Part shown: positions 32,883 through 56,300 of the stretch, in pieces | How the letters are laid out: each line of letters starts with the position of its first letter | Numbering within the stretch: position 1 is the first letter of the stretch | Source of the DNA: Gautieria morchelliformis | Taxonomy: Eukaryota > Basidiomycota > Agaricomycetes > Gomphales > Gomphaceae | Direction of reading: 5' to 3' | DNA length: 64,000 nucleotides | Assembly (NCBI GenBank): GCA_015179125.1 | Contig: WHVA01000280.1 | Coordinates: 82,601 to 146,600, forward strand | Program-made: the position numbers and the translations under genes | The notes under the pieces: model-generated | Database searches by the model: none | What the model was told of the DNA's origin: nothing | The model's input: the letters and a program-made list of their open reading frames with translations, nothing else

Positions 32883-33800
32883 TCAGGCTTTCTTTTCTAG
32901 GTAAGCAACATTCACCTGTAACGTCTGATGGACGAGTATCGATTGCCTTTCAGGGGCAGTAAATTTTAATGATGTGTGGATATGTAACCAGGTAAGCCGT
33001 TCAATTTCTAATTGCACTTGTTTGAATGATTCAGTTGTATTCCCTGTAATTTTTTTAGCTTGGAATGGGTGTAGGACAATTAGTCCATTAAGGCATGTAG
33101 AATGGGAGACCATGACATATGCTGACTGCAGTGTTTTACAATGTTCAATATCCAGAATAACCTTTGGCAGAGTTCTTCCCTGAGCCTTATAGTCGGTCAT
33201 AGCAAACACAGGTAAGATCGGGAGTTGTTTTCGATGAAATGACATCTTTTTCTTTGTATATGGATTGATGAACTCAATTTTCACAGAGTCTTCCATCACA
33301 ACGACTTCATTCTTTTCCAAGAACGGTAATGGTTCGCACGGGCAATGACTAACAATTACTACACAGGACTTGGCATACCCGCCAATGTTTCAAAAAGCCT
33401 GGTGCATTAGGCAAAGTCATCAAATGCATACAGTGTTTTGTTGGAATTCACGCTGCTTCGTTCCTTGCCATCCATCTTGATTATAAAGAAGTGCATTGAC
33501 CTTCTTTTCAGTGGTCTCTGGGGCTTTACCTAACACTTCGGTCATGGGTTCCAATGAGGCAGAAGTTTGGCTGTGCAATCTATGTCAGAATGAAATGACA
33601 TTAGAGGCTTTGCTGGTATGTATTGATCATTGTTGACTGCTAACACTGTTGCTAATGTGTTGTATGCAGGTATCAGATTGTATATTGTGTCCTCACAAAG
33701 GTAAAGAGGAATGGGAAAATCCAGGATGTACCTAAGGATGAGATGGATTTGGGTTTCCTTAGGGATCATAAACCTACAGAAGGGCAGGACTGGCTTCATA
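32883..33800 (-). pseudogene. PIF1-type helicase C-terminal fragment
   Basis: The frame 32883-33320 carries the C-terminal SF1B helicase signatures: FAMTDYKAQGRTLPKVILDI (motif V region) and LQSAYVMVSHSTCLNGL (motif VI region, with SH where SR is usual). Upstream, in shifted frames at 33380-33800, are segments common in related Agaricomycete proteins (LATVLAVNNDQYIPA, SFHSDIDCTAKLLPHWNP, KERSSVNSNKTLYAFDDF). There is no Walker A in this window, so the N-terminal half is missing. The domain unwinds DNA 5'-3' in intact PIF1 and Helitron helicases. The VSH change and frameshifts argue for a dead copy. Confidence 0.6.
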
Positions 33801-34010
33801 TTCTCTGTTCATTGGAGGTTCTTTGTATGGATACTGCCCACAATACAGGCCAACTGTGATGCTAAATCTGAATTCAACAGTCAAAATCGTGTGACTTCAT
33901 CGAGATCCTGCATCATTTCCTCTCCCAAGTCATTCCTCACACAGGTACTTACTGTCAGACATATCCATATTATCTCCACTCTGGGCCAGTGAACTCATGA
34001 CAAGGACGAC

Positions 34011-34658
34011 ATGGCCTGTAGTATCCCACAATGTTTTCCTCATGATAGTCATTCTACAGAAGGTGCCCCAGTCAGTGAAGGGGATGAAGAGGATGGACTG
34101 GCTTTGATTGATCATGACACTCATGTCATATTAGCCTATGGTGATCTCAGCCCACTTCACCAGTCCACAGATAAGGTGTCAGGTTCGAAATGGTCAGCGG
34201 GAGACAATAATGTCGTGAGTGGAAAGTCTCTTCAGTAGCTGTTGCCTAACATACTAGAGTAGCTCCCAACTTCAGTTCCCTTTCTTAGAAGGTGAGGGTC
34301 ATGGTACCTCACATCTTGTTGTCTCCAGATCCAACTGACTCATTTTACATGCAGTGGATCTATCATCCATTTGCCCTTATTGTGACGAACCATGGCTATC
34401 TGCCCCTTTCCCTACACTGTTATCTCTCCTTGAGCATACGAAGCACAAATCATATACTGATACTCGCCCTGCCAATGTGCTTGGTCTCAAAGCACTGCTG
34501 GCTGAAACATATCACCCATATGACAGCCAGTTCTGGAATGAAATCATGGAGGATGCAAAGGAGGTGGGAAGAATGAAAGTTGTCACCATCAGTGGTCAAT
34601 ATGCGGCTTTGGAAGGACATGGCCTAGATAGTAAGCCAGACTATCTTTGTTTATCTTA
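34011..34658 (+). pseudogene. RTC4-like gene, 5' part (interrupted by Helitron)
   Basis: Exons 34011-34214, 34258-34291 and 34355-34630 join in frame. The acidic N-terminal segment (STEGAPVSEGDEEDGLALID) is followed by DLSSICPYCDEPWLSAPFPT, LLSLLEHTKHKSYTDTRPAN and GQYAALEGHGLD. The CPYCDEP-(x)n-SLL pattern is typical of the RTC4-like domain family (yeast Rtc4, restriction of telomere capping), which is abundant in Agaricomycetes with unknown role. A GTAAGC donor at 34631 starts an intron. 28 nt into it the sequence switches to the Helitron end at 34659. The gene resumes at 50363. The start is uncertain: ATG 34011, or an upstream exon joined at a TTCTACAG acceptor at about 34058. Confidence 0.65.
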
Positions 34659-34691
34659 CTAGCCAATAGACCCGTGCTTCGCACCGGGTTA
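34659..34691 (-). terminator. Helitron 3' end: hairpin and CTAG
   Basis: Minus strand: a stem of ACCCG.TGC paired with GCA.CGGGT around a GAA loop, then CTATTGG, then CTAG. In Helitrons this structure serves as the transposition terminator for rolling-circle replication. Confidence 0.8.
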
Positions 34692-35350
34692 GTTAAGGTT
34701 AACACCACACAGGGGTAGTCCATAGTATTACAGAATTAATTGGTGAAATGAAACTACATATTTAATCAGGCTTTAGCAGCACCTCTATGTATACAATATT
34801 AGATGTTGGATTCCCCTTCCCTAAAGAACATGGACTCTGTTACAATTAGTGCAACATAAAACTGTCCATGTGAAAATACTGCATATCGCAAGTCTATTCC
34901 TACTGTGCCCCTGTGCTGCACACCAGGATGTGGCACAGCGCTGGGTAGGGACTGCCGGTGCAAGAGAGCTACACTCTCCAGTTGGAGATTATAGGTTTTT
35001 CTTGTCCTTTAGTATGATGTCATATTGTGCCACCCATTGCCCTCAGAGTATATAGTGGGTCCACTTAGATTAGTAATAGAGACTCCTCTTTCCTGCTCAC
35101 TATCAGCAGCGTTTGTAGTTCTGTACAGTTCGTCACCACAGGGAGGCATCCCTCCTTACACTGGGGACCCATGGGATGAGCCTGAATGTGCTTGGACCAT
35201 GGCTAGGGTGGATACCCATGGTTAGGTCAAACACATTGGGTAAATAAAACTTGGGATAAGTAAAATCATTTGGATAAGTAAAACACATCTTATCACAATT
35301 GAAAGTAGCTCTAAATATAGGTAATGTCTCCACCCATTTCTCCCATATCT
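34692..35350. other. Helitron interior, no gene recognised
   Basis: Non-coding as far as I can see; AT-rich with no repeats evident by eye. Confidence 0.4.
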
Positions 35351-35359
35351 GTGTGCCCC

Positions 35360-35542
35360 TCATGGGTAGCATGTCCCTATGTAGGGCATGTGTTCCCAGA
35401 GTGTAGTGTGTCCCGCAAGTATAGTGTGCATAGCATGTCCCCCGTGCATAGTGTGTTCCCCATGTATAAGGTGTCCCCCAAGTGTAGTGTGTCCCCCATG
35501 TGTAGTGTGTCTCCCAAGTATATCATGTGTATTATGTCCCTT
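35360..35542. repeat. Minisatellite, about 18-20 bp unit (left part)
   Basis: Tandem variants of GTAGTGTGTCCCCCATGT. The array continues at 36188-36355, so it was split by the solo LTR at 35543-36187. Read on the minus strand it yields His/Gly/Thr-rich frames (GGHTTLGGH) that are repeat translations, not genes. Confidence 0.75.
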
Positions 35543-36187
35543 TGTTATGAGCATGCATTTCTGACTTCTGACACTCAGTTCCGCCTCCTTTCTGACATCC
35601 CAATAATTCCAACAATCCCGCCCCTTGTTATATCCTTTCTTCTTTCAACTCTATTACTTGGACCTATCAGACTCAACTTGCAGCACAGCAAGACCATATG
35701 ACCGGCCCCTATTGTTCCGTTATGTCAGATATGCTTTCTGTCCCCTTGTTCTTTTGCCCATTGTTCTTGACTCTACCCTGCACCCCCTTGTAGTTCTTTG
35801 TTCTCAATTAGTTACTTACCCCATATATCTTATCTGACTTCCACTTTCTTCGGAATATGCTTAGTACTACCCCATTACCTGTTGTCTCAGCTCTTTGTAT
35901 AAAAGCCCTCACGTATGCTCGTTATTCTGCAATCAGATAATCACCTTCAATACATGATTTCATTTGCTCTATCTCCTGTTCTTAGCACAGCGAGTAGCGC
36001 AGCTCACCTCTGTCTCTTAGCCTTCCGCCTTCCGACTTAACTCTTGGCCTTTAACTTACTTCGATACTTTCCAACTTCTGACTTACAATCTGAAATCCTT
36101 AGGATGATAGTTCATTGGGGGCGCAACACATAAGTTGAAGCCACCATCCTTTCTAGTTCTGACTTCCAGAAATCGCAATACGTAACA
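35543..36187 (+). repeat. Solo LTR (645 bp) inside the Helitron
   Basis: Begins TGTTATGAGC and ends ATACGTAACA, with TGTTA/TAACA termini, flanked by the 5-bp duplication CCCTT (35538-35542 and 36188-36192). It carries a TATA box (TTTGTATAAAAGCC) at about 35895-35908. The size and pyrimidine-rich content suit a gypsy LTR. It interrupts the minisatellite. Confidence 0.8.
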
Positions 36188-36355
36188 CCCTTGTGCATAG
36201 CATGTCCCCCAAGTATATCACGTGTAGATGTCTCTTGTTTGTAGTGTGTCCCCCATGTGTAGTGTGTCCCTGGAGTGTAGCATGTCCTCCAAGTATAGTG
36301 TGCAGAGCATGTCCCTTGTTTGTAGTATATCCCCATATGTAGCATAACCCTAAGA
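36188..36355. repeat. Minisatellite, right part
   Basis: A continuation of the GTAGTGTGTCCCC-type tandem repeat after the solo LTR. Confidence 0.7.
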
Positions 36356-36639
36356 GCCTAAAAGTGAACTTATTGTAGGGGCAGAGAAAATAAATAAATG
36401 TCAGAGGGTTTACAATGGATAATAGAGAAATAGACTTACATTTTGCAAGCAGAGGCTGTTGTCATTAATTTTTAGCAAAGTCAAGGAAATTGTTTGATGT
36501 CTATTTTGACAAATATACAGTATATATATGCATAAAAAAATAAAAAGAAATTACAATTAAAAAAAAAGAGACACTGATCCTAATAAATATCAAAAAAGAA
36601 GGAGATATGAGAAGAAACATACCACTTGCAGTGATGACC

Positions 36640-38080
36640 CACAGGAATGGTGGGAGCCCTGAACCTGGGCTAGAAAAAAAATAAAAAAAAATAAAAAATA
36701 AAAAAAGAGGATAAAAAAGCGAAAACTTATTGCAAGAAATGTTAGAAAAAAATGCACCACAGGCTATGATGATGGTCAAGAAAGGTGGAGGCAATACGAG
36801 GAGCAGGCCAGGCTGAAAAGCAGTCAAAAAGTGGTTAAAAAAGCGAAAATGTTAGAAGAAATACCATGGAGAGAAGCTGATCCTAATAAATGTCAAAACA
36901 ACACAAATATGGTAGCATGACACACACCAGATGCAGCAATGGCAGACAGGAAAGGTGGGAAACACTTAGAGGAGGAACCTGGGCTGAAAAGATGGCAAAA
37001 AGAGGATAAAAAAGCGAAAATTAGGGGAAGAAATGACAGATATGATAAGGAAAGAGCATACAGGAGGCAGTAGTGATGACCAAGAAAGGTGGAGGCAATG
37101 AGAGGAGCAACCTAAGCTGAAAAGAAGTCAAACAGAGATTAAAAAAGCGAAAATTACAGAAAGAAATAGCAATATTTACCATGGAGAGAAGCTGATTCTA
37201 ATAAATATCAAAACACATGATAGCAAGACACACACCAGATGCAGCAATATCAGACAGGCAAGGTGGGAGGCATTGAGAGAGGGGCCTGAAAAGAAGACAA
37301 AAAGAGGATAAAAAAGCGAAAATTATTGGAAGAAATGATAGATATAATAGGAAAAAACACACCAGAGCCAGTAATGACCATCAAGAAAGGTGGGAGGCAA
37401 TGAGAGGAGCAACATAGGCTGAAAAGGAGTCAAACAGAGATTAAAAAAGCGAAAATTATAGCTAGAAATAGAAATATTTACCATGGAGAGATGCTGATTC
37501 TAATAAATGTCAAAACAAAACAAATATGATAGCAAGACACACATCAGATGCAGCAATGGCAGACAGGAAAGGTGGGAAGCATTGAGAGGAGGAACCTGGG
37601 CTGAAAAGATGGCAAAAAGAGGATAAAAAAGCGAAAATTAGTGGAAGAAATATGATGAGGAAAGAACACACAGGAGGCAGGAGTGATGACCAAGAAAGGT
37701 GGAGGCAATGAGAGGAGCAACCTAAGCTGAAAAGAAGTCAAAAAGAGATTAAAAAAGCGAAAATTATAGCAATAAATAGCAATATTTACCATGGAGAGAA
37801 GCTGATTCTAATAAATATCAAAACACATGATAGCAAGACACACACCAGATTCAGCAATATCAGACAGGCAAGGTGGGAGGCATTGAGAGAGGGGCCTGAA
37901 AAGAAGACAAAAAGAGGATAAAAAAGCGAAAATTATTGGAAGAAATGATAGATATGGTAGGAAAAAACACACCAGAGCCAGTAATTACCATCAAGAAAGG
38001 TGGGAGGCAATGAGAGGAGCAGCCTAGGCTGAAAAGAAGTCAAAAGAGGATAAAAAGCGAAAATATTAACAATATTTACC
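36640..38080 (-). repeat. Satellite-like tandem array, alternating about 132- and 170-bp units
   Basis: At least ten units, each carrying the core AAAAAAGCGAAAAT. Cores lie near 36717, 36838, 37010, 37142, 37312, 37444, 37622, 37754, 37921 and 38056, so spacing alternates at about 132 and 170. A higher-order repeat of about 610 bp is also visible: CAGATGCAGCAATGGCAG recurs at about 36931 and 37550, and the CAATATCAGACAGGCAAGG block at about 37244 and 37855. Read on the minus strand, each unit has a pyrimidine tract ending CTTTTCAG, then about 50 bp of C-rich sequence, then GTGTG or GTATG. That arrangement looks like an exon with splice sites. Not a CRISPR: no spacers, and the context is eukaryotic. 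Confidence 0.8.
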
Positions 38081-38280
38081 TGAGGGGGCTGTAGAGAGAC
38101 AGAGAGCCCCAGTAAGAGACACAGAGAGAGCCAGACACAGAGAGAGGGGACCTTTTGCACTCCGACCACCACCACCCACGGACCGCAACTTAGAGTTCCT
38201 ACTTTTCTGCCATAACTACCGCCTTAGCTACGCTCAAAAATCACTCTTTACATCCATAACACCCACCAACCCTCGCGCTG

Positions 38281-40174
38281 ATGTCGAACGACGCGTCGAC
38301 GAGCGGTGCGAGGGGCAGAAACACGCCCACGCGACGGGCACCAGCGCCTACGACCATGGCACAAGCGAAGCTAGACACCCAAGGCCGAATCCAGCCCAGA
38401 ACAACAATCAGCACAACGAAGGAGAAACAGCCAGAGCAGACGAAGCGAGTCGAGGTCCCGGGAGAAAAGAGGGTGCAGACGGGACGGCCAGCCACAAGAG
38501 GTGCAGCGCAGGACCCGGAGTGCCTCACCAGGGAGGAGATAAGAGACTTACCAGGACAGGAGATCAGGGATTCCGATGAAGGTAAGATTTACCTTGAACG
38601 TACCCTGCTGACAGTTCCGGGCGCATCTTGGACGACCGACACGCTGTCCACTGCCATACTGCAAGTGACACAATACAAAGGAGTGTCGCGGCAGGCTGTC
38701 AACGCACTGCGATCCATCGCATTCGTGATGGAAAGCATCGAGGACGACACAAGATACGAGAGAGTTATGTGCCAAGTAAAAGAGAGTCTTGCAGCCGAAG
38801 GAAACACTCTCTCAGTCAAAGTGGCGGAGGCCACAGAAATGCTCAACAAAGCCACGGCAGCTGCGGGTGCCACAGCCAAGCTATCCCGCCAGATAGCCGA
38901 GGACGCAGCAACGGTAGTGAAGGCGATGCAGACGGCGTCGAACACGGTCGCCTCCTCAGCAACTCAGATCAACGAAACCAGCACCTCATATCGAGACGCG
39001 ATGGTGAAGGTGGCGGATATCACGCAACGAGCACCAGCCAGCGCACCCACCCTCAATGCCAGGGTCCGGGCGAGGGAAGGAATAAAGCAGAGACAAGTCC
39101 TGGTGGATGCTGCGGCCCTGGGGGAGCGCATACTGGCAGAAATGGAAAACGCCGATCTGATGACCTGGGCGAACGAAATCATCAGCGCTATGGACACGGA
39201 AGGGGTCCACACTGTTGTTAGCACGAGGAGACTCACGAATGGAGGGGTACTATTCGAACTCAATGACGAAGCGGCGGCGAGGTGGCTCAATGGAGCTGAG
39301 CGCAGAGTGCGATTCACAGAGGCACTTGCGCCAGACGCGAGGATGAAGGCGCGGCTATTCTCGCTAGTACTACAATTCGTCCCACTCCACTTCATACCGG
39401 AGCGCGAGGAGGAGCTGAGGGAGATGGAGAAAGTCAACCGCCTGTCGCATGGCGCGATCGATAAGGCAAGATGGATCAAGCCCAGACAGCGCAGGGCAGC
39501 GAACCAGACCTGTGGCCACGCCCTCATCACCTTCACCACGCCCGAGGTAGCCAACAAGATACTGATGGATGGACTGATCGTGTGTCAGAAGCGCGTTTAT
39601 GCCGAGAAGTGCAAGAAGGAGCCCACCCGCTGTCTTAAATGTCAGGGATGGAACCACATGTCCTATGCCTGCCCACAAGGACAGGACACATGCGGCACCT
39701 GCGGAGGATGCCACAGGACGGCCGCTTGCGACCAAACGAGGCTGTACTGCGTCTCGTGCAAACCTGCGGAACATGCCAGCTGGGCCAGAACATGTCCGGT
39801 ATTTCAGAGTAAGTGCATCGAGCTAAACACTAGACTCCTCGAGAACCAGATGCCCTATTTCCCCACTGAGGAGGCATGGACCCATGTATCTCAACCGCCA
39901 AAGATTCCCCCCCCCGATCCCGATACCCACCTTCCCGACATTTGCACCACAGCAGGACACGGGATGGGAGGTAGTAGCACGACGGAGAGGCAAGTACAGG
40001 CAGACGACGCTCCCATATGGGCAGGGCTCGACGGGACGGCAGCTGCGGCCGGCGCCCCAGCAGGATCCCGTCAACGAGGGTGCTGCGCCCCCCGTTGGCC
40101 TTAACCAGGGCCCCACCCAGCGGTGGGGCAACACAGGCAGAGAAGGTGAGCCACCCCTACCAGATCAATACTGA
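38281..40174 (+). pseudogene. LINE ORF1 (Gag-like, zinc knuckles)
   Basis: An RNA-binding ORF1 protein. A disordered N-terminus is followed by a long Ala-rich helical stretch (about residues 160-270: KVAEATEMLNKATAAAGATA). The nucleic-acid-binding part contains the RRM-like HTVVSTRRLTNGGVLFELND and three clustered Cys/His knuckles near residues 440-510 (CLKCQGWNHMSYAC, CGTCGGCHRTAAC, CVSCKPAEHASWARTC). The frame from 38281 runs to a stop at 40104. A one-base slip in the C9 run at 39907-39915 moves into a second frame with TGWEVVARRRGKYR and a stop at 40174, which looks like the genuine C-terminus. Either the run lost or gained a base, or frameshifting occurs there. Confidence 0.82.
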
Positions 40175-42685
40175 TGTCCTACACAATAGGACCTACACAA
40201 CAGGACCTACACCAACGAGACTGAGAATATTTCAACAAAACCTCAATAAATCGGACAAGGCGCAATATGACCTCATCAACTCCGCGATACATAAAGAGTG
40301 GGACCTAGTACTACTACAAGAGCCGTACATTGATACGCTAGGGAACACGAAGGCCAACCACAACTGGCGCGTCCTATACCCCACTTCTCATTTGACTAAC
40401 ACCACCGTAAAGAGAACAGTTGTCCTGGTCAATGCCGCGCTGGATACCAACACATGGTCGCAGATGTCGCTCCAGGGGACGAACGACGTGGTGGTGGTGC
40501 AGCTCAAACATCCCCAGGGCAAGACTACGATCTTCAACATCTATAACGACTGCGAACACTCCGAGTCACTGCAGGCTATCGAGAACTTCATAAAACTAGA
40601 GCGAGGCAACATCATCCAGCAGGAAACAGACTCCATGGTCTGGTGCGGCGACTTTAATCGCCACCACCCTATGTGGGACGAGGAAAGGAATCATCATCTG
40701 TTCACCGCTGAGGCCACTAGAGACGCAGAGGAGTTGCTATTGCTGCTAGCAGAGTACAACATGGTGATGGCTCTCCCGAAGCGAACGCCCACTCTGCAAT
40801 TGATGTCGACCAAGAATTGGACCAGGGTCGACAACGTGGTCTGCACGGACAACGTTGCCGGCTCCATCATCACTTGCGACACCGACCCGAGAAGGCGTGG
40901 CCCAGGGACCGACCACGTCCCTATCCTCACAACACTGGATATTAGGGTGGAGGTTAAAGAGCCGGAGCCGTTCCGAAATTTCAGGTCGACTGGGACCACT
41001 TTCGGGAGCAGCTGGCAGAGCAGCTGGAGGTGGTTCCGGATGCGAGGGAACTCGGCACCGAGGCCAAGTTCGCCAGAGCAGTCAATGCGCTGACGAGCGC
41101 CATCCAAGACACCATCGACATCGTGGTGCGGATGTCAAAGCCGGTCCCACACTCGCGCAGATGGTGGACCAGGGAGTTGTCGGAGCTTAAGAAAACAAAG
41201 AATAGGCTGAACCACAAATCTTACCTCCACCGCGCGATAGCTGACCACCACACCCACGCAGAACTCAAGGACGTCAACGAAAAGTACAGCAAAGCGATCG
41301 GCAGGGCAAAGGTGCAGCACTGGGCCGATTACTTGGAAGATCTCAATGAAGGGCTCCTGTGGTCCGCAAACAAGTATCTGTCCAATCCGGCCTCGGACGG
41401 CGGCAAGTCTCGAATCCCGTCACTACAAGTAGCAGCGCCCAGCGGCGCCGTGCAAACGGCAGAAACCAACGAAGAGAAGAGCCTAGCCCTGGCAGCAGCA
41501 TTCGTCCCGCCCAAGCCCGCCGAATCACAGGTACCGACAGACTATCGTTACCCAAAGCACATCCGCCACAGCTTCCAGCTTCATGAGGACCAGATCAGGT
41601 GCCAAATCAATAAACTGAAGCCGCATAAGGCCCCAGGCGACGACGGGATCCCAAACATAGTACTGAAGGAGGCGGTAGATTTGATCGCTGAGCACCTCCT
41701 TTATATCTTTCGTGCTACCTTCACACTGAAAACCTACAGTGATAGCTGGAGATCCTGGATTACAGTGGTGCTACGGAAACCGGGCAAGGCCTGCTACGAC
41801 GCTCCGAAATCTTACCGCCCCATAGCCCTACTCAACACTATAGGAAAGCTGTTAACGGCGATAGTCGCAGAAGACCTGGTTTACCTTACCGAGACGCACA
41901 ATCTCTTGCCAGCCAATCACTTCGGCGGAAGGCCCGGCAGGACGACCACCGACTCCCTCCACCTCGTAGTCAACAGGATCAAAGGAGCATGGAGGAGAAA
42001 GAAGGTAGCAGTAATGCTTTTCCTCGACATTGAGGGAGCGTTCCCGAACGCGGTAACGGATCGGCTCCTGCACAACATGAGGAAGAGAAGGGTGCCAGAG
42101 GAGTTCGTGGGATGGATGCTGGCCAGCCGACGCACCAGGATCAAGTTCAACGATCACCTCTCGGACTGGGTACACATAGACAATGGGATCGGGCAGGGGA
42201 GCCCGCTCTCTATGATTCTTTACCTCTATTACAACGCTGACCTCATAGATATCGCTAATGGAAAGGGGCAGGCCGCGGTGGCGTACATCAACGACGCCAA
42301 CCTCTACTCAGAAGGTGACACCTACGAGGAAGCGTACGAGGGGCTGAGGGAGATGCTGCTCAAGGAGGGGGGGGGGGGGGCGAAAGAGTGGACACTGACC
42401 CACCACTCCAGATTTGAAAAATCCAAGTTCGCGATAGTGGGGTTCTCGAGACGCCGGATGGAAGACCCTGCGAGGCCGGGCAAAACCAAGCGAGACATAA
42501 GGCCCGACTTCACGTACGAGGACACCGTCGTCCAGCCAACATCGTCACACAAGTTCCTAGGGGTCTTCTTGGACGAGGAATTGCGATGGAAAGATCAGGC
42601 TGAGAAGGCAGTGGCGAAAGCGGCTAAGTGGATGTTACTGGCTCGCAGACTAACTAAACCCTCCACAGGGGTGCGTGCAACGTAC

Positions 42686-43182
42686 TGTTGGGTGCATTGA
42701 TGCTCCTGCACCAAAATCAAGCATAATATATCCAATTTGTTGTGTGCTTTCTCAATTTCTTCTCATGTTGTTCTTGTATCATGCATCCATTTCTCTGGTT
42801 ATTTTCGAACTTTTCCACTCACTCCCTATCTCTCCATTTCATCTTGTTATTCCTACTTTCACAAGCGGCTGCACCCAGCGGAGTCTGAAATGACTTCGAT
42901 GCGCGAGCTCTTGGGCGCTAAAGGGCCGGGTAGTAGTACATGCGCAGTGAAACAGTTTCCCCCTCTCTCAGTGACAACTAAATTCACTGAGAGAGGCAAG
43001 TAAATTAGTCTAGCATCCTTTCGATTTATTAACCTAGAAATCCTCTGTAGTGAATTGTTTTCTAGGTAGTGTATAATATATTTAAAGTGACAACTAAATT
43101 CACTGAGAGAGTGAATTGTTTTCTAGTCTATTCTTTTGAGCAAGAAGTCCATTCCTACTGCCTATAATTCCTGTCCTCTACA
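42686..43182 (+). repeat. 5' LTR of copia D
   Basis: TGTTGGGTGCATTGATGC to GTCCTCTACA, 497 bp. Contains direct repeats of GACAACTAAATTCACTGAGAGAG. Confidence 0.95.
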
Positions 43183-43197
43183 GGGTTATGGGCCCCG
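43183..43197 (+). promoter_or_regulatory. Primer binding site of copia D, overlapping first ATG
   Basis: GGGTTATGGGCCCCG directly after the LTR, complementary to the initiator tRNA-Met anticodon stem-loop. The ATG within it (43188) is the first codon of the long gag-pol frame. Confidence 0.75.
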
Positions 43198-46100
43198 GAG
43201 ACACTTCTGAGAAGCTATTGGGTGTTGAGAAGCTATTGGGTGTTGAGAAGCTTGCTACTGATGGAAGTAATTGGCCATTGTGGCGAGCCACTCTCATCAG
43301 CTATTTCGAGTCCAAAAATCTACTCAAGCATGTAGAAGGGAGTGTCACTCGACCTCCTGATCCTCCAGTTATGCCCCCAGGCCATATTCTTACAGAAGCT
43401 GAGGAAACTCAGATGGATAAGGCTGAGGAGAAGCTGGAGAGATACCTTGCTAGAGAAGGACAAGCCAAGACCCAAATCATCGTCTCAGTGTCAGAGTCAT
43501 TAGCCCTGATGCTACAGAAGCACAAGACAGCAAAAGAGACTTGGGATGCAATGGTCAATGAGATGACCAAAAAGCCCAAGATGGTCCTCACCAGCCTGCA
43601 GAGACAACTCCGCAGTATGAGATGTCCTGAGGATGGAGACTTGAGAGATCATTTGGACAAGGCCCAAGACCTATATGCTCGTCTTAATGAGATGGGAGCC
43701 AGAGTTTCCGAAGAAGAATTTATGGACATCATCCTTGCGTCACTTCCACCATCCTATGAGGCAGTCATGAATGCCCTTACCACTTCGCTTGAAGAATGCG
43801 GGATGCCATTGGTCCCTGATAATATTATTAGGGTACTAAAGGCTCAGTATGACAGGAAGAAAACACTCCCGCAAGAAGAGCAGGTGTTTATTGGTTCATC
43901 TACTAAGAAGGACCAGAAGGCGCAGAAGGCGCATATATGCACCAACTGCAAAAAGCCTGGACATTCTATCGAAAATTGCTGGGCTAAAGGAGGTGGTAAA
44001 GAAGGTCAAGGACCACGTCAGAAGAAAAAATCCAAAGCCAAGAAGAAGAAGAAGGGTAAAGCAAAAGCGAATGTTGCCGAAGAAGAGTCCTCTTCTGAGG
44101 AAAGTGGTGATGGGCATCTTGCCTTCACCAATTTTGACGAGTGCTCTAATTTCAATCTGAGCACATCCTCAGGAGTTATAGTTATACTCGACACCGGAAC
44201 GACATCGCATATGACTCCTCACAAAAATTTATTGAGGAACTACTGTCAATTCTCACAGCCGAGGACTATCCGAGCAGCCAACAAAGGCACTTTTGATGCC
44301 TTCGGTTCAGGACTGCTTGTATTATCCAACAAGGTTGGAGATAAAACAGTTGAAGTCACGTTGCAAGATACATATTATGCTCCAAAAATTGCTGCTACCC
44401 TCGTCTCGATCGGTCGGTGCGATGATGCTGGCTATGACATTCGACTCGGTGGCCAGAAATGCACAATATCTAACGCTACTGGAAAGGTATTGATGCAAGC
44501 ACCGAAGGTCAATGGTTTATATCGACTAGACCTCCAGTCACCAAGTGCTCAAGCCCATATGTGTTTGTCTGCCATGGAAATTCATCAAAAAATGGGGCAT
44601 ATCTCACAGAAGTCCCTACAACATCTATTAAATCATGGCATGGTATTGGGCATTGAACTGAGCTCCACAGGCGATAGAATTGTCTGTGATGCGTGTATTC
44701 AGGCCAAGATTGCACGCAAACCTCTTCCTCGAGAACCCAGAGACCGAACGTCAAAATTCGGTGACAGAATTTATTCTGATGTCTGGGGACCTGCAAGGCA
44801 CCTCACAATCGATAAGAAGTCATATTATGTCTCCTTTATCGATGATTACTCAAGAGAATCGGTGATCTATCTCATGGCGAACAAATCAGAAGCATTCTCA
44901 AAGTACAAGCTCTATGAGGCTTTAATGCTTCGACAGAGAAATGTGCACATTAAGGCACTTGTTTCTGATCGAGGGGGCGAGTATACGAGCTCTGAATTCG
45001 AACAGCATCTAGCCAAACAAGGCACGAAGCATCAGTTGACGGTACACGACACACCAGAGTCTAATGGTGTTGCCGAACGTCTGAACCGAACCCTCACTGA
45101 GAGAACTCGTGCCATGCTGTTAGAATCAGGCATTCCTAAGATATTATGGGGCTATGCAATACAGCATGCCAATTATCTTAGCAACAGGACGCACACAAGA
45201 GCTCTACCGGATAAAACGCCCTACGAGATGATCCACCATGAGAAACCGAATCTCAAAGACATTCACGCGTGGGGAATTGAAGTCTATGTTAAGGTCACTC
45301 AGGGAGATAAATTGGAAGCTCGTGCCAAGAGAGCTCGGTGGATAGGAATTTCTGCGCAGAGCCATGGTCATTATATTTATTGGCCTGACTCGCACAAAGT
45401 TTCTGTCGAGCGGAATGTTGTGTTTGATTCAGAGATGAAGAAGGGAAAGGTCCCAATCATTTCTATTGAGGAATCCAAGCTACCTACGTCTAGAGAGGAG
45501 AAGAAGGCCATTCCGGCATCAGTGCCTGTGCCCGGTCGCTTAGTCAGCGAAGAGGCAAAGATCGAAGAAATTGATGAAAATGCACCAGAGGAATATCTTG
45601 AAAAGCTGCAACCTATTCAGGGAGTTGATGACAGACCTAGAGAAGCTGAACCGATAAGGAGAAGCGAAAGGATCCGTCAACAACAAGTGCAGCCGGCCCC
45701 ATCAGGTCCCGTAACAAGATCTCAAACCCAGAGACAAGCTGGCGCACATATGACTACGCTAGCTTACGAGGACGTTGAGGACCATAAAGAAGTTTTATTC
45801 GACCAAGAATTATCCTCCGAGATTGATGGCATCAGTAGCTATGAGTGTGCCATCAGTGCGTTTCTAACCGACGGTCAAAACAATAACAAGGCGCCGGATT
45901 TGAGTCAAATTGAACCTAGCAATGCAGACGAAGCTCTGAATAATCCTATATGGAAGAAATCAATGGACAAAGAGTATGAGGCCCTAATCGACAAGGGAGT
46001 GTGGGAACGAGCCAAACCACCTCCTGGAGCCAATATTGTCGGTAATAAATGGGTCTACCTTTGGAAGCGTAATCCAGAAGGGAAACCAATAATGCCTAAA

Positions 46101-47450
46101 TCGAGAATGGTCGCCCAAGGCTTCACACAGAAGTTTGGAGTCGACTATGATGAGACATACTCACCTGTTGCTCGGTTATCCTCCCTACGGATCATATGTG
46201 CCATTGCTGCTAGGAATGACTGGCCTATCCATCAAATGGACGTGGACTATGCATACCTCAATGCTACACTACCTGAACCTATTTACATGAAGCAGCCGTA
46301 TGGATATGAGTCTAGAGACAAAGACGAAGTGCTACTTTTGAAGAAAGCACTCTATGGCCTCAAACAATCTGGAAGGGAATGGTACAAACGTCTAAGTGGT
46401 GAATTCCACAAATTAGGATTCACTACGTCAGCCACAGATGGGGCTGTATTTTATAGACGTGGCGGAAAGGGGCATGTGATCATTGCAACAGCTGTGGATG
46501 ATCTCACCATCACAGCTGAGAATCAGTCAGTCCTGGACGAAGTCAAACGAGATCTTGCTCAGGTCTTCAGTATGAAAGGTCTAGGCGAGATTCATTGGCT
46601 ATTGAATCTCAAAATCGAAAGAGACTGGCAGAAGAAAACTATTGCAATTTCACAACCTGCATACATCGAGAAGATCATCAAGAAATTCAATCTCAAAGAT
46701 GCAAAGACTTATGCTACGCCCCTTGATCCAGCTGTTAAATTATCAAAAGACCAGTGTCCTTCTACAGAGAGAGACAAGAAAGCCATGTCGAAGTTTCCAT
46801 ACAGGCAAGCCATAGGATCGCTGATGTGGGCAGCTGTAGCCACTCGACCTGACATTGCATTTGCGGTGTCATTGCTTTCGCAATTCCTCAAAAATCCAGG
46901 TGGCACACATTGGAATGCAGTCAAACGTGTCTTCAAATATTTGAAAGGCACGAAGCATTACAAGCTCACACTTGGGAGAAATTGAGACGGCTTGATGGGG
47001 TATTCAGATGCGGATTGGGGTTCACAGAGTCATAGGTGTTCGTATTCGGCATACTTATTTCAGATTGATGGAGGCACTGTTTCATGGAGTTGCCAGAAAC
47101 AGTCGATAGTAGCCCTCTCATCAACTGAAGCCGAATTCGTCGCCCTGACCCATGCGGGCAAAGAGGCTCTTTGGATGCGCCATTTTATTTCTGAAATATT
47201 CCAACCACTGAACAGACCCATCAAAATTTATTCAGACAATCAATCAGCCATTGCCATCACGTATGGCACTCAACAACACATGAGAACCAAACATTTCGAC
47301 ATCAGATTATATTTCCTTCGAGATATAATCAAAAATCAACAAGCCAAGCTCGTTTATTTGCCAACCGAACAAATGTTGGCAGATATCCTCACCAAAGGAC
47401 TTCCTAGTCCTAGAGTGAAGATCCTCAACGAACAAATCGGAATATATTAA
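43188..47450 (+). pseudogene. Copia D gag-pol polyprotein, one in-frame stop
   Basis: A 1,265-codon frame to TGA at 46983-46985, then the same frame resumes (DGLMGYSDADWG) to TAA 47448-47450. In order: Gag (ATDGSNWPLWRATLISYFES; residues 1-250), CCHC knuckle (CTNCKKPGHSIENC, about residue 250), protease (VILDTGTTSHMTPH, about 330), pre-integrase (HQKMGHISQKSLQHLL, CDACIQAKIARK), integrase (YSDVWGPARHL, SDRGGEYTSSEFEQHL, TPESNGVAERLNRTLTERTR), RT (GNKWVYLWKRNPEG, HQMDVDYAYLNATLPEPIYM, LYGLKQSGREWYKRL, TAVDDLTITAE) and RNase H (QKQSIVALSSTEAEFVALTH, RTKHFDIRLYFLRD). The stop fits a CGA-to-TGA change (GRN-R-DGL). An unusual in-tandem LLGVEK repeat sits at residues 11-23. The rest is intact. Confidence 0.95.
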
Positions 47451-47463
47451 GCTTGAAGGGGCG

Positions 47464-47960
47464 TGTTGGGTGCATTGATGCTCCTGCACCAAAATCAAGC
47501 ATAATATATCCAATTTGTTGTGTGCTTTCTCAATTTCTTCTCATGTTGTTCTTGTATCATGCATCCATTTCTCTGGTTATTTTCGAACTTTTCCACTCAC
47601 TCCCTATCTCTCCATTTCATCTTGTTATTCCTACTTTCACAAGCGGCTGCACCCAGCGGAGTCTGAAATGACTTCGACGCGCGAGCTCTTGGGCGCTAAA
47701 GGGCCGGGTAGTAGTACATGCGCAGTGAAACAGTTTCCCCCTCTCTCAGTGACAACTAAATTCACTGAGAGAGGCAAGTAAATTAGTCTAGCATTCTTTC
47801 GATTTATTAACCTAGAAATCCTCTGTAGTGAATTGTTTTCTAGGTAGTGTATAATATATTTAAAGTGACAACTAAATTCACTGAGAGAGTGAATTGTTTT
47901 CTAGTCTATTCTTTTGAGCAAGAAGTCCATTCCTACTGCCTATAATTCCTGTCCTCTACA
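47464..47960 (+). repeat. 3' LTR of copia D
   Basis: 497 bp, preceded by the purine tract AAGCTTGAAGGGGCG (47449-47463). Nearly identical to the 5' LTR. Confidence 0.95.
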
Positions 47961-49893
47961 CGTACATGAGGCAACTATACAGCGCAGTGGCTATACCCAA
48001 ATTCACATACGCTGCGGATGTCTGGTACATGCCGGTGAAAAAGAACCGAGGGGAGGGGAGAGCGACAGGGTCTGTGAGCGTGGTGCGTAAGCTAACATCT
48101 GTGCAGCGCATGGCTACCATCGCTATCACTGGAGCGATGCGCACGACCGCGAGCGACGTCCTGGAGATCCTCGCCAACATCCAGCTGATAGAGCTCCTTC
48201 TCCTAGGCATCTGCTACAAGGCAGCCAGCCGCATTGCAACCCTCCCCAAGTCCCACCCACTACACCGGCCAGCTCGCTCCTGTGCCCGCCGCCTAGTAAA
48301 AAAGCACCCAGCACCACTACACAGGATCCTCCACCGCTTCAGCCTCAACCTGGACTCCCTCGAAGTCATCCAGCCCTTCATCCATGCTCCTGACACTCCC
48401 AGGCTGTTCGTCACAGAGATAGCGGAGTCGAGGGAGGAATCTAGGGAAGCGGACGCTCAGAACATGGTGGATGCCAAGGTCTACGCTGACGGGTCAGGAC
48501 TAGAGGGCAATGCGGGGGCGGCGGCGATACTGTATAGGGCAGGGAGAAAGGCAGCCACGTTACAATACCACCTGGGCCCACTCGCGGACCACACCACGTA
48601 TGAGGCGGAGGTGGTGGGCGTCATCCTGGCGCTGGAGCTGTTAAGTCGAGAAAAGGGCGTCAGAACGGCGTGCATACTCCTTGATAACCAGGGAGTGATA
48701 CTGGCAGTAGGTAACGTCAAGCCCAAGCCGGCGCAACACATTCTAGGACGCATCCACGACATGGCCAACAGGATGGCAACGCCCTCAAGGAGACGCAACG
48801 TGCGCATCAAGATCACGTGGATCTCAGGTCACGACGACGTGGAAGGCAATGAGGCTGCGGACGCGGCAGCAAAAGAGGCAGCAGCTGGAGAGAGCAGTCA
48901 GATAAGTACGCTCCCGCCCTTCTTAGTGGCTGACGCTCTCCCACGCAGTCTGGCTGCCGCGAGGCAGGAGTTCAAGACAGGCAACAGGCACAGTTGGAGA
49001 GAGCGATGGAAAGCGTCACCCCGGTATGGGAGGATGGCGAGAATCGACGACAGCCTTCCCTCACGCACCTACCTCCGAGACACGGCGGGCCTCACTCGAG
49101 CGCAGAACAGTCTGATCACGCAGTTACGCACAGGCCACGCCCCGCTCAACAAACACCTCCATCGGGTCAAGCAGGTGCCATCCCCGCTGTGCCCGGCGTG
49201 CCACAGGGCCGACGAGACGGTCCACCACTTCCTCTTCGAATGTAGAGCGCATGAGCACGCAAGACACAGGGTGAGACGGAAGCTGGGCAGAAAGTCAGGG
49301 TCCATCAAGGAGCTCCTGGGTGCAAAGAACTCGATGGAGACGCTACTGGGATATGTAGCGGCAACAGGCAGGCTGAAATCGGCGTTCGGTGATGTCTCCC
49401 CGTCACTCACTTAAAAAAGTATAAGATAACTAGCTCGACAGGGACGCTAGAATACAAGACGACGGACAACATCGTTGCGCCATCGCGTGACCAAAACCCT
49501 CAAAACACCCCACTCACACCGCTCGCGCAGCGACGCGTACCGACTCGTCACAGCAAGACCAAGAAGAAGTCCGTGGACCCCTTTTTACCTTCGACTGCAG
49601 CGCTCCCACACGTCGTGGCAGCCCGCCCCGGCGGCCGAGCACTTAGAAAGCCAGACCACCCACACACTAGAACAACCAACAGGGGAACGGGAGTACTTAC
49701 CTAAAAAGGGTGGGGCGAGAAATGGCTCAAGGAGTCGGGCTGGCGGGGGGCAGGGAGCTTGTCGTCAGTGCACTCGCCCGCTCGAGGATGCAGAGGGATG
49801 GGAGCCCTAGGGAGCGAGAGGGAAGGCCCACCCAATTATTAGTACAACGCGTGTAGCGACCAACATAGGCCTAGCCTGGGGTCGATTAAAATG

Positions 49894-49923
<30 letters not shown>

Positions 49924-49924
<1 letters not shown>

Positions 49925-50100
49925 CACAGAGAGAGCTAGTAGCAGACACAGAGAGAGCCAGCAGCAGACACAGAGATCCAGCAGCAGACACAGAGATCCA
50001 GTAGCAGACACAGAGATCCAGTAGCAGACACAGAGATCCAGCAGCAGAACAGATCCAGCAGCAGACAGACAGATCCAGCAGGCACAGAGACAGTGGGCAG
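49924..50100. repeat. Minisatellite, 20-bp unit (LINE target)
   Basis: About seven tandem units of AGATCCAGCAGCAGACACAG, degenerate at the edges. A matching CAGAGAGAGCCAGACACAGAG tract lies left of the LINE (38095-38146), so the LINE inserted into this array. A minus-strand Cys/Leu-rich ORF here is only the repeat translated. Confidence 0.8.
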
Positions 50101-50362
50101 GAGAGCCAGAGGTTGCCAGTTGGACCAGAGGAAATGGCAGCAGGAGGGTCGAGGGAAGGTGGGTGCGCGCGCGCAGCAACGTTGGACGCGAACCGGTCAC
50201 GTGACCAGGAACGCTGCTTGGCTGCGCTGCTCACATTCAAACTCTGCCATTGTAGAAAGTTGCGTGGTTTGTTTGCATCTTAGTCAGGATTATGTCAGCG
50301 GAGCGTGCTGTTTTCATATAGTGAGGCCCACAACCGCCCCCACTAGAACTTTATACTATTGA

Positions 50363-50716
50363 TTTTATTGTTCTAACCAGTACATGGGGGATCCATTATG
50401 GAGAACAGGGCTCTATTATTATTCATCAAACACTTTATTTATTATTCCCTCCAGATGATATGCCATTAACAGTTCATCCACTCACACTGGACCAATTTCT
50501 AACATGCATGCTCATGCCCAAACCCACTGTGCTCCTCATTCAGGAAAACATGTGTTGGATGATAGCAAAAAGTACAGTCTCACCGTGTTCCCTGAACAAG
50601 AGGATGATTCATTCTTGATAAGGTTTGGCAAGAAACTTGCTATGGAGAAGACAAAGGAAAGAAGAAAGTTATTAGAAGACAGGGAGGATGCAGAGGTCAA
50701 TGTGGAGTGCCATTAA
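50363..50716 (+). pseudogene. RTC4-like gene, 3' part (after Helitron)
   Basis: The last 18 nt of the split intron (with the TTCTAAC branch motif and CAG, 50363-50380) lead into an exon reading HYGEQGSIIIHQTLYLLFPP, then MPLTVHPLTLDQFLTCMLMP and LLIQEN. After a one-base frame change near 50545, it reads LDDSKKYSLTVFPEQEDD and ends ECH-TAA at 50716. The YGEQG-xxII-xxTLY-xLFPP pattern and the final DSxxY...FPE block are the C-terminal hallmarks of RTC4-like domains. The exon phase differs from the 5' part by one base, explained by loss of one G in the GGGGG run at 50385-50390 or one base at the donor. The copy is decayed. Confidence 0.65.
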
Positions 50717-52528
50717 CTGTCATATGCTAAGTTGACTGATGATTGCTCTCCTGGATGTATAGATCATTGTTACATGTCATAAGTCATTTAAATACAAAGT
50801 GGGACACACCTTTTTTGTGGAAATATCAGTATCCTTACAAGGTGTATAGAAGTATGTCAGTTTGCTGGATGCCTTTGCACCATATGGATGGAAACCTGCC
50901 CTATGCCTCTGGAGGAAGGACTGAGCTGTTACACTTGACATCCTTTGTATCAGCTTGACAGTCAGCTCAGGCTTTCCTATGAATTGGAGGTTGAAACCCT
51001 ATAGCGTCAATTCTACCTCTCACCGACCTGTGGCTGATGGCGGCACAATCATTCTGTTGGGTGATTCAGAGACACGGTACATACAGGTGAATGGTGACAA
51101 GAACAGCACTTATGATGCATGTCACACACTGGTGGCAAATGTTACCCTGTTACCACATGCTGTGAAATCTTAGCATAAGAATTGTGCCAGGTTTTTAAGA
51201 ATGTCCTACACTCAAGTCAGCAGGCAACCATGGCAGGAAAAATCATAATGATAATACTGGAAAATGGTTTTCCCTGCAATGAAGACTCACTGTTTGCTTT
51301 ACATTTCATCCCCAGGGAAAACCTGGGTAATACCATGTATTTATTTATAAATATTATCATTTTGCTAAGATCTTGCAGGTCAGCAAAATCCATGTTGAAC
51401 CTGATGTTTTTACCCAGTCTTGCCATGACAAACAACCTACTCATAAGGCTACTTTTTCTCAAGCTTTTATTTAGAGTTTTACCTGCCTGAATCTGATGAT
51501 TTGGCTTGGATTTTCATGGGAGGCCAAATCATGGGAGAATTCACAGGTTTGTTATGGTTTTCCCTGCCCAAAATATTATAATATAATCCAACCACTTTTT
51601 CCAGTTTTATTAAGGGTTTTTCCTGTGGGAAAACCTATGCCCCCAGTGTGGAACAAGAATCAGCCAGCGTGAAGTGCTGGCAGCTCTTGTATTATATACT
51701 CATATATGCTGTATCATGTGACCTTTTTGATTATCCTCCTTAGAAGAAGGGCAAAGGAGAGAAGGAGGACAGAGCTGGTGAACAGGGAGGGAGATAGAAG
51801 ATAAAAGAAACAGACAGGTTGTCCTGACAGTCTCAGCAAATATACAATGTGCAAGGAGATATAATGCAATCTGTTTTGTTAGGCCTTGAGATGAATCTAG
51901 TCTTGTCTCTGGCATTGGCCAGGGCTGATTGGTCAGCTGGCTGCCAACTGATGTAGCCTCGATTGTGCATTACTATATCTGGCCTAGCACTCCATGCCAG
52001 ATGCAGTGAAGTTGATCGATATGATGGATTAGCTAATCACTAATTAACATTGGGTGCTTCACATGGAATAAGTCCCCTAGGTCTACGGAAAACCCCCTGG
52101 GCAGGGTATCAGATGGTTATTACATGTACATGATTTATAATAGTGCATGCAAGTGGGTAATCAAATGCAGGAATATTCTCAAAACCATCTGGAAGTCCAA
52201 CCACTATGATAGTAGGAGATGCAACATACCTGTGTGTCAATGAGTGTTTCCCAGCGAAATTACCTGGCCTCTCTGCATTGCATCCACAATCTGCCATGCT
52301 CAAACTGGCTGAAGTCAAGCTTTGTGGACCCCTTTGCAATGACAGCGGTGTTCGCTGGCCGCCAGAGACCTATTTGTGACCAGGGTGGTATCCAGAACAA
52401 AAGTTCTGAGTGCGAGTTTAGCAACCAGCCACTTTCGAGGCATGAGTCATTTCGAAACCCAGGCCCCATAGCTGTGCAAATGATATTAGCAGATTTGGTC
52501 ATGTACCGACAAATCAAGATGACAGCTA
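50717..52528. other. AT-rich intergenic; one unassigned frame
   Basis: A 72-codon plus-strand frame at 50955-51173 (VADGGTIILLGDSETRYIQV) could be the last exon of a gene, but I recognise no family. At 51230-51650 variants of GTTTTCCCTGC and GGTTTTTCCTGTGGGAAAACC recur, a short-palindrome cluster. Nothing else is called. Confidence 0.35.
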
Positions 52529-53310
52529 CTAACTAGCCCCACCTTCGAATGGTGCTGGAATGAGCTCTCCTGTGTCTGCATTCCACACACGGATCGTCTT
52601 GTCATCAGACCCGGAGACGATGCGCTTGGCGTCTTGCGAGAACGCCACCGACGTGACCCAGCCGGTGTGGCCTTCAAATGGTGCTGAAATGGCCTCCCCG
52701 GTGTCTGCATTCCACACACGGATCGTCTTGTCATAAGACCCAGAGACGATGCGCTTGCCATCGTGCGAAAACGCCACCGACATGACCCAGCCGGTGTGGC
52801 CTTCGAATGGTGCCTCCCCGGTGTCTGCATTCCACACACGGATCGTCTTGTCATAAGACCCAGAGACGATGCGCTTGCCATCGTGCGAAAACGCCACCGA
52901 CATGACCCAGCCGGTGTGGCCTTCGAATGGTGCCTCCCCGGTGTCTGCATTCCACACACGGATTGTCTTGTCATCAGACCCGGAGACGATGCGCTTGGCG
53001 TCTTGCGAGAACGCCACCCACGTGGCCCAGCCGGCGTGGCCTTCGAATGGTGCTGAAATGGCTTCCCCGGTGTCTGCATCCCACACACGGATCGTCTTGT
53101 CACCAGACCCGGAGATGATGCGCTTGCCGTCGTGCGAGAACACCACTGACGTGACGATGTGGGTGTGGCCTTCGAATGGTGCTGAAATGGCCTCCCTGGT
53201 GTCTGCATTTCACACACGGATCGTCTTGTCATCAGACCCGGAGACGATGCGCTTGCCGTCATACGAGAACGCCACCGACATGACGGACGCGGGGTGGCCT
53301 ACTAGAACGT
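52529..53310 (-). repeat. WD40 repeat array, 120-126 bp units, two identical
   Basis: Six coding repeats (SVAFSHDGKRIVSGSxDKTI, RVWNADTGEA). Two adjacent 120-bp units (about 52681-52800 and 52801-52920, differing only at the unit edge) look identical along the readable length. The others differ by a few bases. Confidence 0.85.
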
Positions 53311-56300
53311 TTTGAATAGATGGCCACGTCGTCACTTTCCCGGTCTCGATGCAGAGTAGTCGTGGAAATCGTGGGAGGTAAGTCTCGCATAGTTTTGACC
53401 TTTCAGGTGCGAACGCGAGTGCCGACAAATAGAGATGGGGAGCACTCTGAGAGATTGCACTCCCAAATGCACCGACAAAATTGCGGGTATCCGCTACAAA
53501 TGCTGTAGTGTCATTATCCTGAGGTTCATCAGACTCAGGTCGGAGCTCATAACAACTCGGGCACTTACCTGACTCCAGTCCATTATTGACGAGAGCGCTG
53601 CTGAAGCATCGGGTACCTGCTTGGTCAGACTCAAAACTTCCAGCCAGTAGAGTAGCATAGTCTCGAAGAACTCCTTGACCTTTGCATTTATACCCGGCGT
53701 AAAGATGGTGGCGCGAACATGGTCCGCCCAAAAACGGCAAGAGTACGAAAGTTGTGGGGATATATACCTCTTGATCCGTGTCTCCAAGTCCAAAACATCG
53801 CCGTTGAGCAGATGTGAAGTTTCAAGCTGACAAATGTTGAAACAAAGTTCATCCTTCATCACACGCAAGCATGAGAGTGCAAGACTGTCATGGTGTGAAG
53901 ATGAATCGATGTAGTATGCTTTACTCCGATTGTGATCTGTCAAGAAGTCACGAAAAGACGTGTGCAGCAGGCTGATTGGGTCAGATTCTCGAATAGGAAC
54001 GCTCAACAGAGCGCCCATGGGCCCAACAATAGCATGAACCTCGGTACCGGACTCGACCCCATGGCACAGCTTCTGCAGGGCAGACATCGAGAGCGGTTCT
54101 CTGGCGGTCAGCAGGCAGCCCATCACCAAGCGAAAGCGACATTTGACATCGTCCGTCAAGTCATCGCCATCCCCGAACAGCTGCTTGAGTATACCGCCAT
54201 AAAGATTATCCATCCCATGGAGGTCCTTGACTAAAACTTCTTCCAGCTGCTTAACAGGAACGTGACCACGCGTACCACCTCCTTTAACAAACAGACAAGC
54301 CGTGGACGCCCATTGAAAGTGACCTTCAGACTTCTCGACTAATAACCGACACCAGCCCTTGTCGGGCCATTTGCGCTCGAGGTCCATAATGTTACCTAAT
54401 TGGTCTTTCACAAAACGGGTGACGGCATCGGCAGGGTTCGGGTCAATATCCTTTAAGGACCTGGAAAGGACATGCTTCTGCCCAAGAAGGGCGTCCAGGA
54501 TGTCTTCTTCGGCGCGGGCAGTGATAAGAAGATGGAAATTAGACGGCAGCTGTGCTGCTTCATTGCGCAGGACAGACAAGAGAGCCTGGCGAGATTCCTG
54601 GTCTCCGCTCTCATCCAGTGCATCAATAACGATCACGCTCGGTCCAATGGACGTTAGGTCCTTGGAGGGGTCCAGAATGAATTTTTGGAACTGCTCACGA
54701 GGTACGCGTGTGGTCCGAAGTGCTTTCTGTTCCCCGACCACTTTCAGCAACGATGCCCTTCGTGCTGGATCCCGCTCAGCCAGATCATAAGCAATCGTGC
54801 TAAAGACATTGCCAGGGGAGCGGTGTGTCTGATCACCGTGTTCAAAAAAGTACGACGACCCGAGACGTTTCATCCGGTCAAACCTTTTAGCGACCTCGTG
54901 GGCGATGGCAGACTTGCCGGCACCCGCAACATCGTTCAAGAAAAATATGCGTGGGGTGTCCTCGCTCTCCTGGTTGGCCCACTCCCAGATCTCCGCAAGA
55001 ACTGTCTCCCTAGTATCCTGAAGACATCCTTTCTCAGGATTGAACTTCGCACCGTCTGCGTAGGGCATGTCATCCAGCAGAATTTTCCCAGCTGGTTACA
55101 ATGCGTATTAGCCTGGGAAATGCCTCAAGCCAGAAACTCACAGATGTCTCTGACGACATCTAGAACACGTAGTACAGTGATCTCAGTATGAATCACGGCA
55201 TGTTGTTGTAGCTCCGACTTGAGTTTGTCGAAAGATTCCTCGTACTGTTTGACCATGCTGTCGACATCCGACACTGCATTTTTCGCGGTTCCTTTCCCTG
55301 AACAAAGATCGTCAGCTATGGCCACCTGACAGTGGGTTCAACATACAGGATCCCTTGTTTTTTGTGTATGCGCGGATAAAGTAGCTGCACTCTAACGTCT
55401 GCTGCTCCAAGGCTAAGATAATCGGCTTCCGCGATTCAATTTTCCTCAACGGCTCTGCCAGATGGACGAATGCATAGGTGTCTGCAATAATTTTCGCCAG
55501 ACCATGGATCCTATCGTCCCGGTCCATCTGAGCAATGATTGTCTTATAGAGTCAACCCCAGATGTCAGCTATGCCTATCCGGTTAAAGTATGTCATAGAT
55601 GTACCGTGTGAGCAAGAGACAGGATGGACCATGCCATTTTCGCGTAAGGATGAACCTAGAATTAAAGCACACCGCGTCAATGAGATGAGCTGGGAGACCC
55701 CAGGTGTTTGAACTATACCTCGGAGGCCTTATCCACGATCTCGGTAAACAGCCTGATATTGTTCAGGAGGGGATCCCAAGCCGCCAGTATTGGATCGATA
55801 GTATTGGTGGTCGAAGTGACTCGGTTGATTATATTCCGTACACAAGGGATTAGAGACGGCGGCGGGTTCATATTATTGACCACTCTCGTTTCGCTGATGG
55901 CTTCGTTCAACTGGGCCTCCCGCGCCTCGTCGGACGTCGCGAAAGACGTGAGGGTGAACTCTAGGACAGTCTGAACCTCGCGCATGTTCCCTGCGTCGTG
56001 GTATTTACGCAGTGTGCGAACAACGGCTGCTGTGTTCGATGATTACACGTGCATTCCGTCGACGAGCGAAAAGGACTGACCTGCAGTTGCTCCTTCTGCA
56101 AGCAGCGACTCAATGCTCTCCCTCGCACTGCCTATGTAGTAATCACCTGTAAAGATACGGTGCCCGTAGACGTCGATTCCTAATACGGAACCCCCATTCA
56201 AGTCGTTGCTGGGCATGGATTTAAGATTTACGTGAAGATAACACTGGGATTAAACGCACAAATAGAATGACTCATCCCACGACGCAGTACTTCCGCTCGC

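Follow-up and report, generated by a model that had tools for sequence, protein, structure and literature searches.

Helitrons close to the one described here are known from a fungus and from maize. In Pleurotus ostreatus, HELPO1 and HELPO2 insert at AT, have TC-type and CTAG-type ends with a sub-terminal hairpin and make no target duplication, all of which recur at the present locus, and their autonomous members carry RepHel (available part of PMC4289320). The maize mutations sh2-7527 and ba1-Ref (available part of PMC1657028) and a vacant site (available part of PMC2267711) document A/T-flanked Helitron insertion with a readable vacant site, as found here. Helitrons joined CTAG to TC have been described in maize and, as cited in the same excerpt of PMC2267711, in a bat. 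CpG-directed mutation of transposable elements has been described in three basidiomycetes, being weak in two of them (available part of PMC4352252).

We analyzed a stretch of 64 kb (C316:82601-146600, hereafter the window) against the assembly it belongs to (122 Mb, 1113 contigs), whose gene types suggest a fungus, probably an agaricomycete. According to our in silico analysis, a Helitron entered an intron of a duplicated copy of an RTC4-like gene and later received a non-LTR retrotransposon (LINE), itself split by a Copia element. We give this account as a whole a probability of about 0.92. Our literature search found no paper on RTC4-like genes in basidiomycetes, and a search on Helitrons with intron, empty site, pseudogene or nesting, judged by the titles and abstract openings of the papers listed, did not find this case. 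The features are listed in Table 1.

Table 1. Features of the composite insertion and of the interrupted gene copy (window positions)
Feature	Position	Strand	Basis and remarks
Whole insert: non-autonomous Helitron with all nested elements	34659..50362	-	15,704 nt; ends and relatives
Helitron 3′ portion: CTAG end, sub-terminal hairpin, internal repeats, left LINE-duplication copy	34659..38146	-	Related copies, fold
Helitron 5′ portion with TC end at 50362	49936..50362	-	Terminus matches, relatives
LINE target-site duplication ACACAGAGAGAG, left copy	38135..38146	+	Empty site in C183 (L068)
Non-LTR retrotransposon: endonuclease, RT, RNase H, poly(A); broken by Copia	38147..49923	+	Domain searches
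LINE target-site duplication, right copy	49924..49935	+	Sequence comparison
Copia target-site duplication CGTAC, left copy	42681..42685	+	Right copy 47961-47965
Copia-type LTR retrotransposon	42686..47960	+	LTRs 42686-43182 and 47464-47960
RTC4-like exon remnant 5′ of insertion	34345..34630	+	C582 comparison; 138 nt missing, 1-nt deletion near donor
Intron 5′ part, donor GTAAGC	34631..34658	+	28 nt; C582 alignment
Intron 3′ part, ends ATCCA against TTCAG in C582 (acceptor lost)	50363..50395	+	33 nt; C582 alignment
RTC4-like second exon remnant, indels against C582	50396..50707	+	C582 comparison; similarity ends at 50707

Results

The Helitron ends belong to a high-copy family

On the plus strand, position 34658 is an A and 34659-34662 read CTAG, followed by the hairpin; at the other end, 50361-50362 read GA, the complement of the minus-strand TC, and a T follows at 50363. 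The insert therefore reads A/TC...CTAG/T on the minus strand. Each terminus occurs only once in the window when up to 5 substitutions are allowed. In the genome, scoring the best 40 of 277 candidates for the left end gave at least 39 other matches (self excluded), 28 of which begin at 34656-34660 and 11 further out, at 34643-34654. For the right end, the best 40 of 120 candidates likewise gave at least 39 others, with 31 stopping at 50362-50364 and 8 elsewhere; all these counts are lower bounds. The 5′ TC and 3′ CTRR termini are common to this family, which is high-copy, and its best other copies are 93% identical over 474 bases and 95% over 789 bases. The minus-strand Helitron proposed from the sequence alone thus has the ends of a high-copy family, and the search for same-ended copies placed those ends at 34659 and 50362.

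The flanks in the family were examined in the fetched loci. CTAG is followed by T in 16 of 17 distinct termini, a count that includes the window copy and in which L005 and L073 share a flank and are not independent; the exception ends in CTAT. TC is preceded by A in 16 of 21 distinct termini, by G in 4 and by C in 1, and each of the four G cases adjoins the CTAG end of a neighboring Helitron. Head-to-tail pairs in which CTAG runs directly into TC were seen at L026 (C810:36781), L010, L015 and L019, once within the same family and three times after the end of what appears to be another family. The hairpin that the sequence-only reading had noted at the CTAG end is visible, with 8 pairs lying 11 nt before the end, but its fold is not outstanding: the free energy is modest (−7 kcal/mol as DNA, z −1.78), and 12 of 200 shuffles are as good.

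Both termini are present in 6 of the 10 fetched loci (L067-L071 and L075), and L072, L073, L074 and L076 show no complete two-ended copy. The two window arms are joined as one element in C183 (3833 nt), C810 (3288 nt) and C782 (3189 nt); the C810 and C782 elements have no host T after their 5′ end because another CTAG directly adjoins. These relatives bear on whether 34659 and 50362 belong to two separate Helitrons flanking one site. Since the family is abundant in the genome and head-to-tail pairs occur, such an arrangement is conceivable, but these three relatives carry the left arm (34659-38146) and the right arm (49924-50362) as one uninterrupted stretch, and the single occurrence of each terminus in the window also speaks against it. 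We rejected this explanation as highly improbable on the strength of the relatives with both arms in one element.

No Helitron protein was seen among the searched ORFs of the window copy. RepHel domains are abundant elsewhere, with at least 150 matches in the genome (best 150 of 865 candidates). One of them lies within C810:36781-44018, in an element whose two ends are those of the window Helitron family. Among the matches listed, 7 of the 39 other 5′ ends have RepHel 3.6-4.0 kb inside and in fitting orientation (C810, C526, C930, C572, C1081, C959 and C1; the two listings were paired by eye). Judged from sequence, the longer, same-ended, RepHel-carrying element is likely the helper of the window Helitron.

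A paralog on C582 preserves the empty site

On C582, positions 154644-154792 match the left flank up to 34658 and positions 154793-155168 match the right flank from 50363. The two halves are adjacent and the alignment is gap-free at the junction, so that the counterpart of 34658 is directly followed by that of 50363. The earlier claim that the empty site can be read from the sequence therefore holds to the base, as does that of insertion between A and T without duplication: the flanks are A and T, and the C582 site is continuous with no base lost or doubled. This empty site is paralogous and not allelic, with 95 of 646 aligned bases differing. C330 and C415 were considered as a second empty site and set aside: they are broken from just past 34654 as far as 50488, and since this deletion spans the site, they are silent on it.

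The RTC4 name rests on C582, because the coding pieces of the window score weakly. The joined C582 exons match RTC4 (PF14474) with 83.6 bits over profile positions 4-120, while in the window exon 2 reaches 14.6 bits and exon 1 has no score, below the curated cut-off of 23.7. By this homology, the window copy is a remnant and not a recognisable RTC4 gene.

The insertion lies inside an intron, as had been proposed, and the intron position is conserved in the paralogs. In C582, splicing to the TTCAG that precedes TTATGG preserves the RTC4 frame and gives a 58-nt intron. The intron at this codon is 50 nt long in C309, C226 and C270 and about 60 nt in C113 (looser match, length counted by hand), so that it could be placed at the conserved codon in five of nine RTC4 matches. 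An uninterrupted RTC4-like gene thus does exist in the same genome, although as a paralog rather than an allele and with an intron of 58 nt, not the predicted 46. The window counterpart of the C582 intron measures 28 + 33 = 61 nt and ends in CCA instead of CAG. The CAG at 50378-50380, formerly taken as the acceptor, directly follows CTAAC, and the use of the upstream AG in C582 would put exon 2 out of frame. A CAG without spacing after CTAAC is too close for normal splicing. Given this spacing, the frame-keeping acceptor of C582 and the mutated acceptor of the window, the length of 46 nt comes from reading the raw sequence and is not that of the ancestral intron.

A LINE and a Copia element are nested in the Helitron

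The LINE, about 6.5 kb long, has endonuclease and RT, poly(A) and a 12-bp target duplication on both sides in the window. The sister Helitron on C183 preserves the LINE-free site, GAGCCAGACACAGAGAGAGCTAGTAGCAGA. Over the 1491 bases searched, three further copies of the LINE show 98% identity. The Copia element (about 5.3 kb) has paired LTRs of 497 bp each with 2 mismatches, a 5-bp duplication and RVT_2 after integrase. Together, the LINE and Copia account for 11,777 nt, which leaves 3,915 nt for the Helitron alone. Nesting also means that these 11.8 kb came after the Helitron. The suggestion that a 15.7-kb composite had been tolerated in an intron consequently finds no support: what landed was only about 3.9 kb, and the gene is present here as a duplicate that has decayed and been truncated.

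The gene copy is decayed and depleted in CpG

Compared with C582, the window lacks 138 nt of exon in two gaps that are jointly in frame, has a 1-nt deletion before the donor and further gaps in the second exon, and shows no similarity after 50707, though the C582 frame continues. Substitutions by codon position (26/192, 21/192 and 36/194, both exons summed) show a weak third-position excess.

Only 4 of 30 aligned C582 CpGs are kept in the window; 24 read TG, CA or TA and 2 are otherwise changed. Outside CpG, 24 of 254 C or G sites changed from C to T or from G to A. The observed/expected CpG ratio is 0.27 and 0.08 in the exon remnants against 0.97 and 0.91 in the C582 exons; the Helitron arms stand at 0.26 and 0.51, the LINE parts at 0.86 and 0.84, and Copia at 0.63. 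The loss in the gene copy is consistent with its methylation as repeat DNA. The contrast between the old layer (0.08 to 0.51) and the young LINE and Copia (0.63 to 0.86) suggests a simple but imperfect sorting of repeat layers by age, since one kilobase of the youngest element, Copia (43001-44000), stands at 0.32. More broadly, 29001-52000 is largely made of CpG-poor old repeats between mostly CpG-normal flanks, a stretch broken by the CpG-normal LINE and by Copia, one kilobase of which is poor. Dating the Helitron against the gene decay by CpG was dropped: both are depleted, so CpG gives no order.

Such decay has to be weighed against the idea that the Helitron landed in a gene copy still being expressed, the insertion being tolerated through splicing and the decay coming later. 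The position 28 nt into the intron, the retained donor and branch-like motif, the small size of the Helitron alone (about 3.9 kb) and an exon loss of 138 nt that keeps the reading frame would all agree with it. The exon deletion, the other indels, the lost acceptor, the 3′ truncation and the disappearance of 26 of 30 C582 CpGs do not, and the fragments on C330 and C415 share the exon-deletion junction (by eye) and the downstream repeat, so that some of the damage predates their split from the window. In addition, a 3.9-kb insert in a 58-nt fungal intron probably disturbs splicing. We therefore regard an expressed copy at the time of landing as unlikely, and it is a shade less likely again that the intron of about 58 nt of a spliced, expressed RTC4-like copy temporarily carried the 3.9-kb Helitron, the locus then serving as a safe landing place for more elements. 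The gene copy was probably a disabled duplicate already at insertion, or was disabled soon after, and tolerance through splicing need not be invoked.

The surrounding segment is rearranged and partly multi-copy

Around the insertion, 33376-33838 recurs at C217 and partly at C515, 33736-33916 recurs at C417 and C866, and 34497-34654, 50488-50533 and 51239-51691 recur at C330 and C415. A rearranged, partly multi-copy segment of this kind would fit a decayed duplicate. Alternatively, an older Helitron or another mobile element may have captured the RTC4-like piece as a gene fragment, with a second Helitron inserting into it later. In favor of capture, C417 and C866 also contain the junction between 33736-33837 and the RTC4-related part (from 33841), C330/C415 and C217/C515 hold further pieces of this segment, and a short inverted repeat, pairable though its letters differ (by eye), precedes the end at 51691 that C330 and C415 share. 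A search for an outer element with two defined ends nevertheless found none. Outside the window, 51636-51700 has matches at C330 and C415 alone, and with 5,885 aligned bases at 90% this pair resembles a single region that was duplicated more than it does two insertions. We consider capture possible but the less probable origin, and retain a decayed duplicate of the gene as the target.

The long regions at C330 and C415 (L052 and L053 among the fetched loci), about 90% alike, hold the same RTC4 fragment chimera; they are perhaps a duplicated segment or a second haplotype. A MITE-like repeat of about 420 bp at 51229-51648 has imperfect inverted ends by eye and 52 other matching pieces, 5 with both endpoints the same and 23 with the right end within 4 bases. 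Position 33376 is a sharp repeat boundary, where the C204 and C781 matches end and those of C217 and C515 begin. The helicase-like minus-strand ORF at 32883-33389 gave no Pfam match; it matches PIF1 helicase sequences of solved structures (6.4e-05) and is probably a RepHel remnant. Also on the minus strand, at 52486-55095, a NACHT-type ATPase ORF is followed by repetitive ORFs, which we take to resemble WD40 repeats.

Discussion

Our analysis confirms that the insertion is genuine and that both ends are correct to the base. In a first step, a non-autonomous minus-strand Helitron of about 3.9 kb entered the conserved intron of a duplicated RTC4-like copy, where it inserted between the A and the T of TTATCTTA/TTTTATTG; the exact boundaries, the paralogous empty site, the same-ended family and the longer same-ended element over a RepHel domain are shown directly. 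A non-LTR retrotransposon then entered the Helitron, duplicating 12 bp of target, and a Copia element in turn entered the LINE, duplicating 5 bp. These two steps are shown by the nesting, the duplications and the LINE-empty site in the sister Helitron. The nesting order is gene copy, Helitron, LINE, Copia. The RTC4-like copy in the window is now a pseudogene, and the C582 copy probably keeps the function of the gene.

Because each insertion has its own signature and two empty sites are readable in the same genome, the succession of events can be established without recourse to an outgroup species. Three nested insertions, each signed in this way, make a clean worked example. Knowledge of Helitrons is unchanged by it: every component belongs to a known kind, and the locus is an ordinary, very readable case of known processes.

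The same holds when the locus is set beside the described systems. The Copia element has the gag, integrase and RVT_2 order of Ty1/Copia, with TG...CA LTRs and its 5-bp duplication, and shows no notable difference. With its endonuclease, RT and RNase H, its poly(A) and its target duplication, the LINE is built like fungal non-LTR retrotransposons, among which the Tad1-like elements are presumably the appropriate comparison. Compared with HELPO1 and HELPO2, the window Helitron is non-autonomous and interrupted by two retrotransposons, and the likeness noted here is one of shared features. In maize, sh2-7527 is reportedly also an intron insertion, and the targets of the maize Helitron mutants are said to be working genes, whereas the target in the window is a decayed duplicate.
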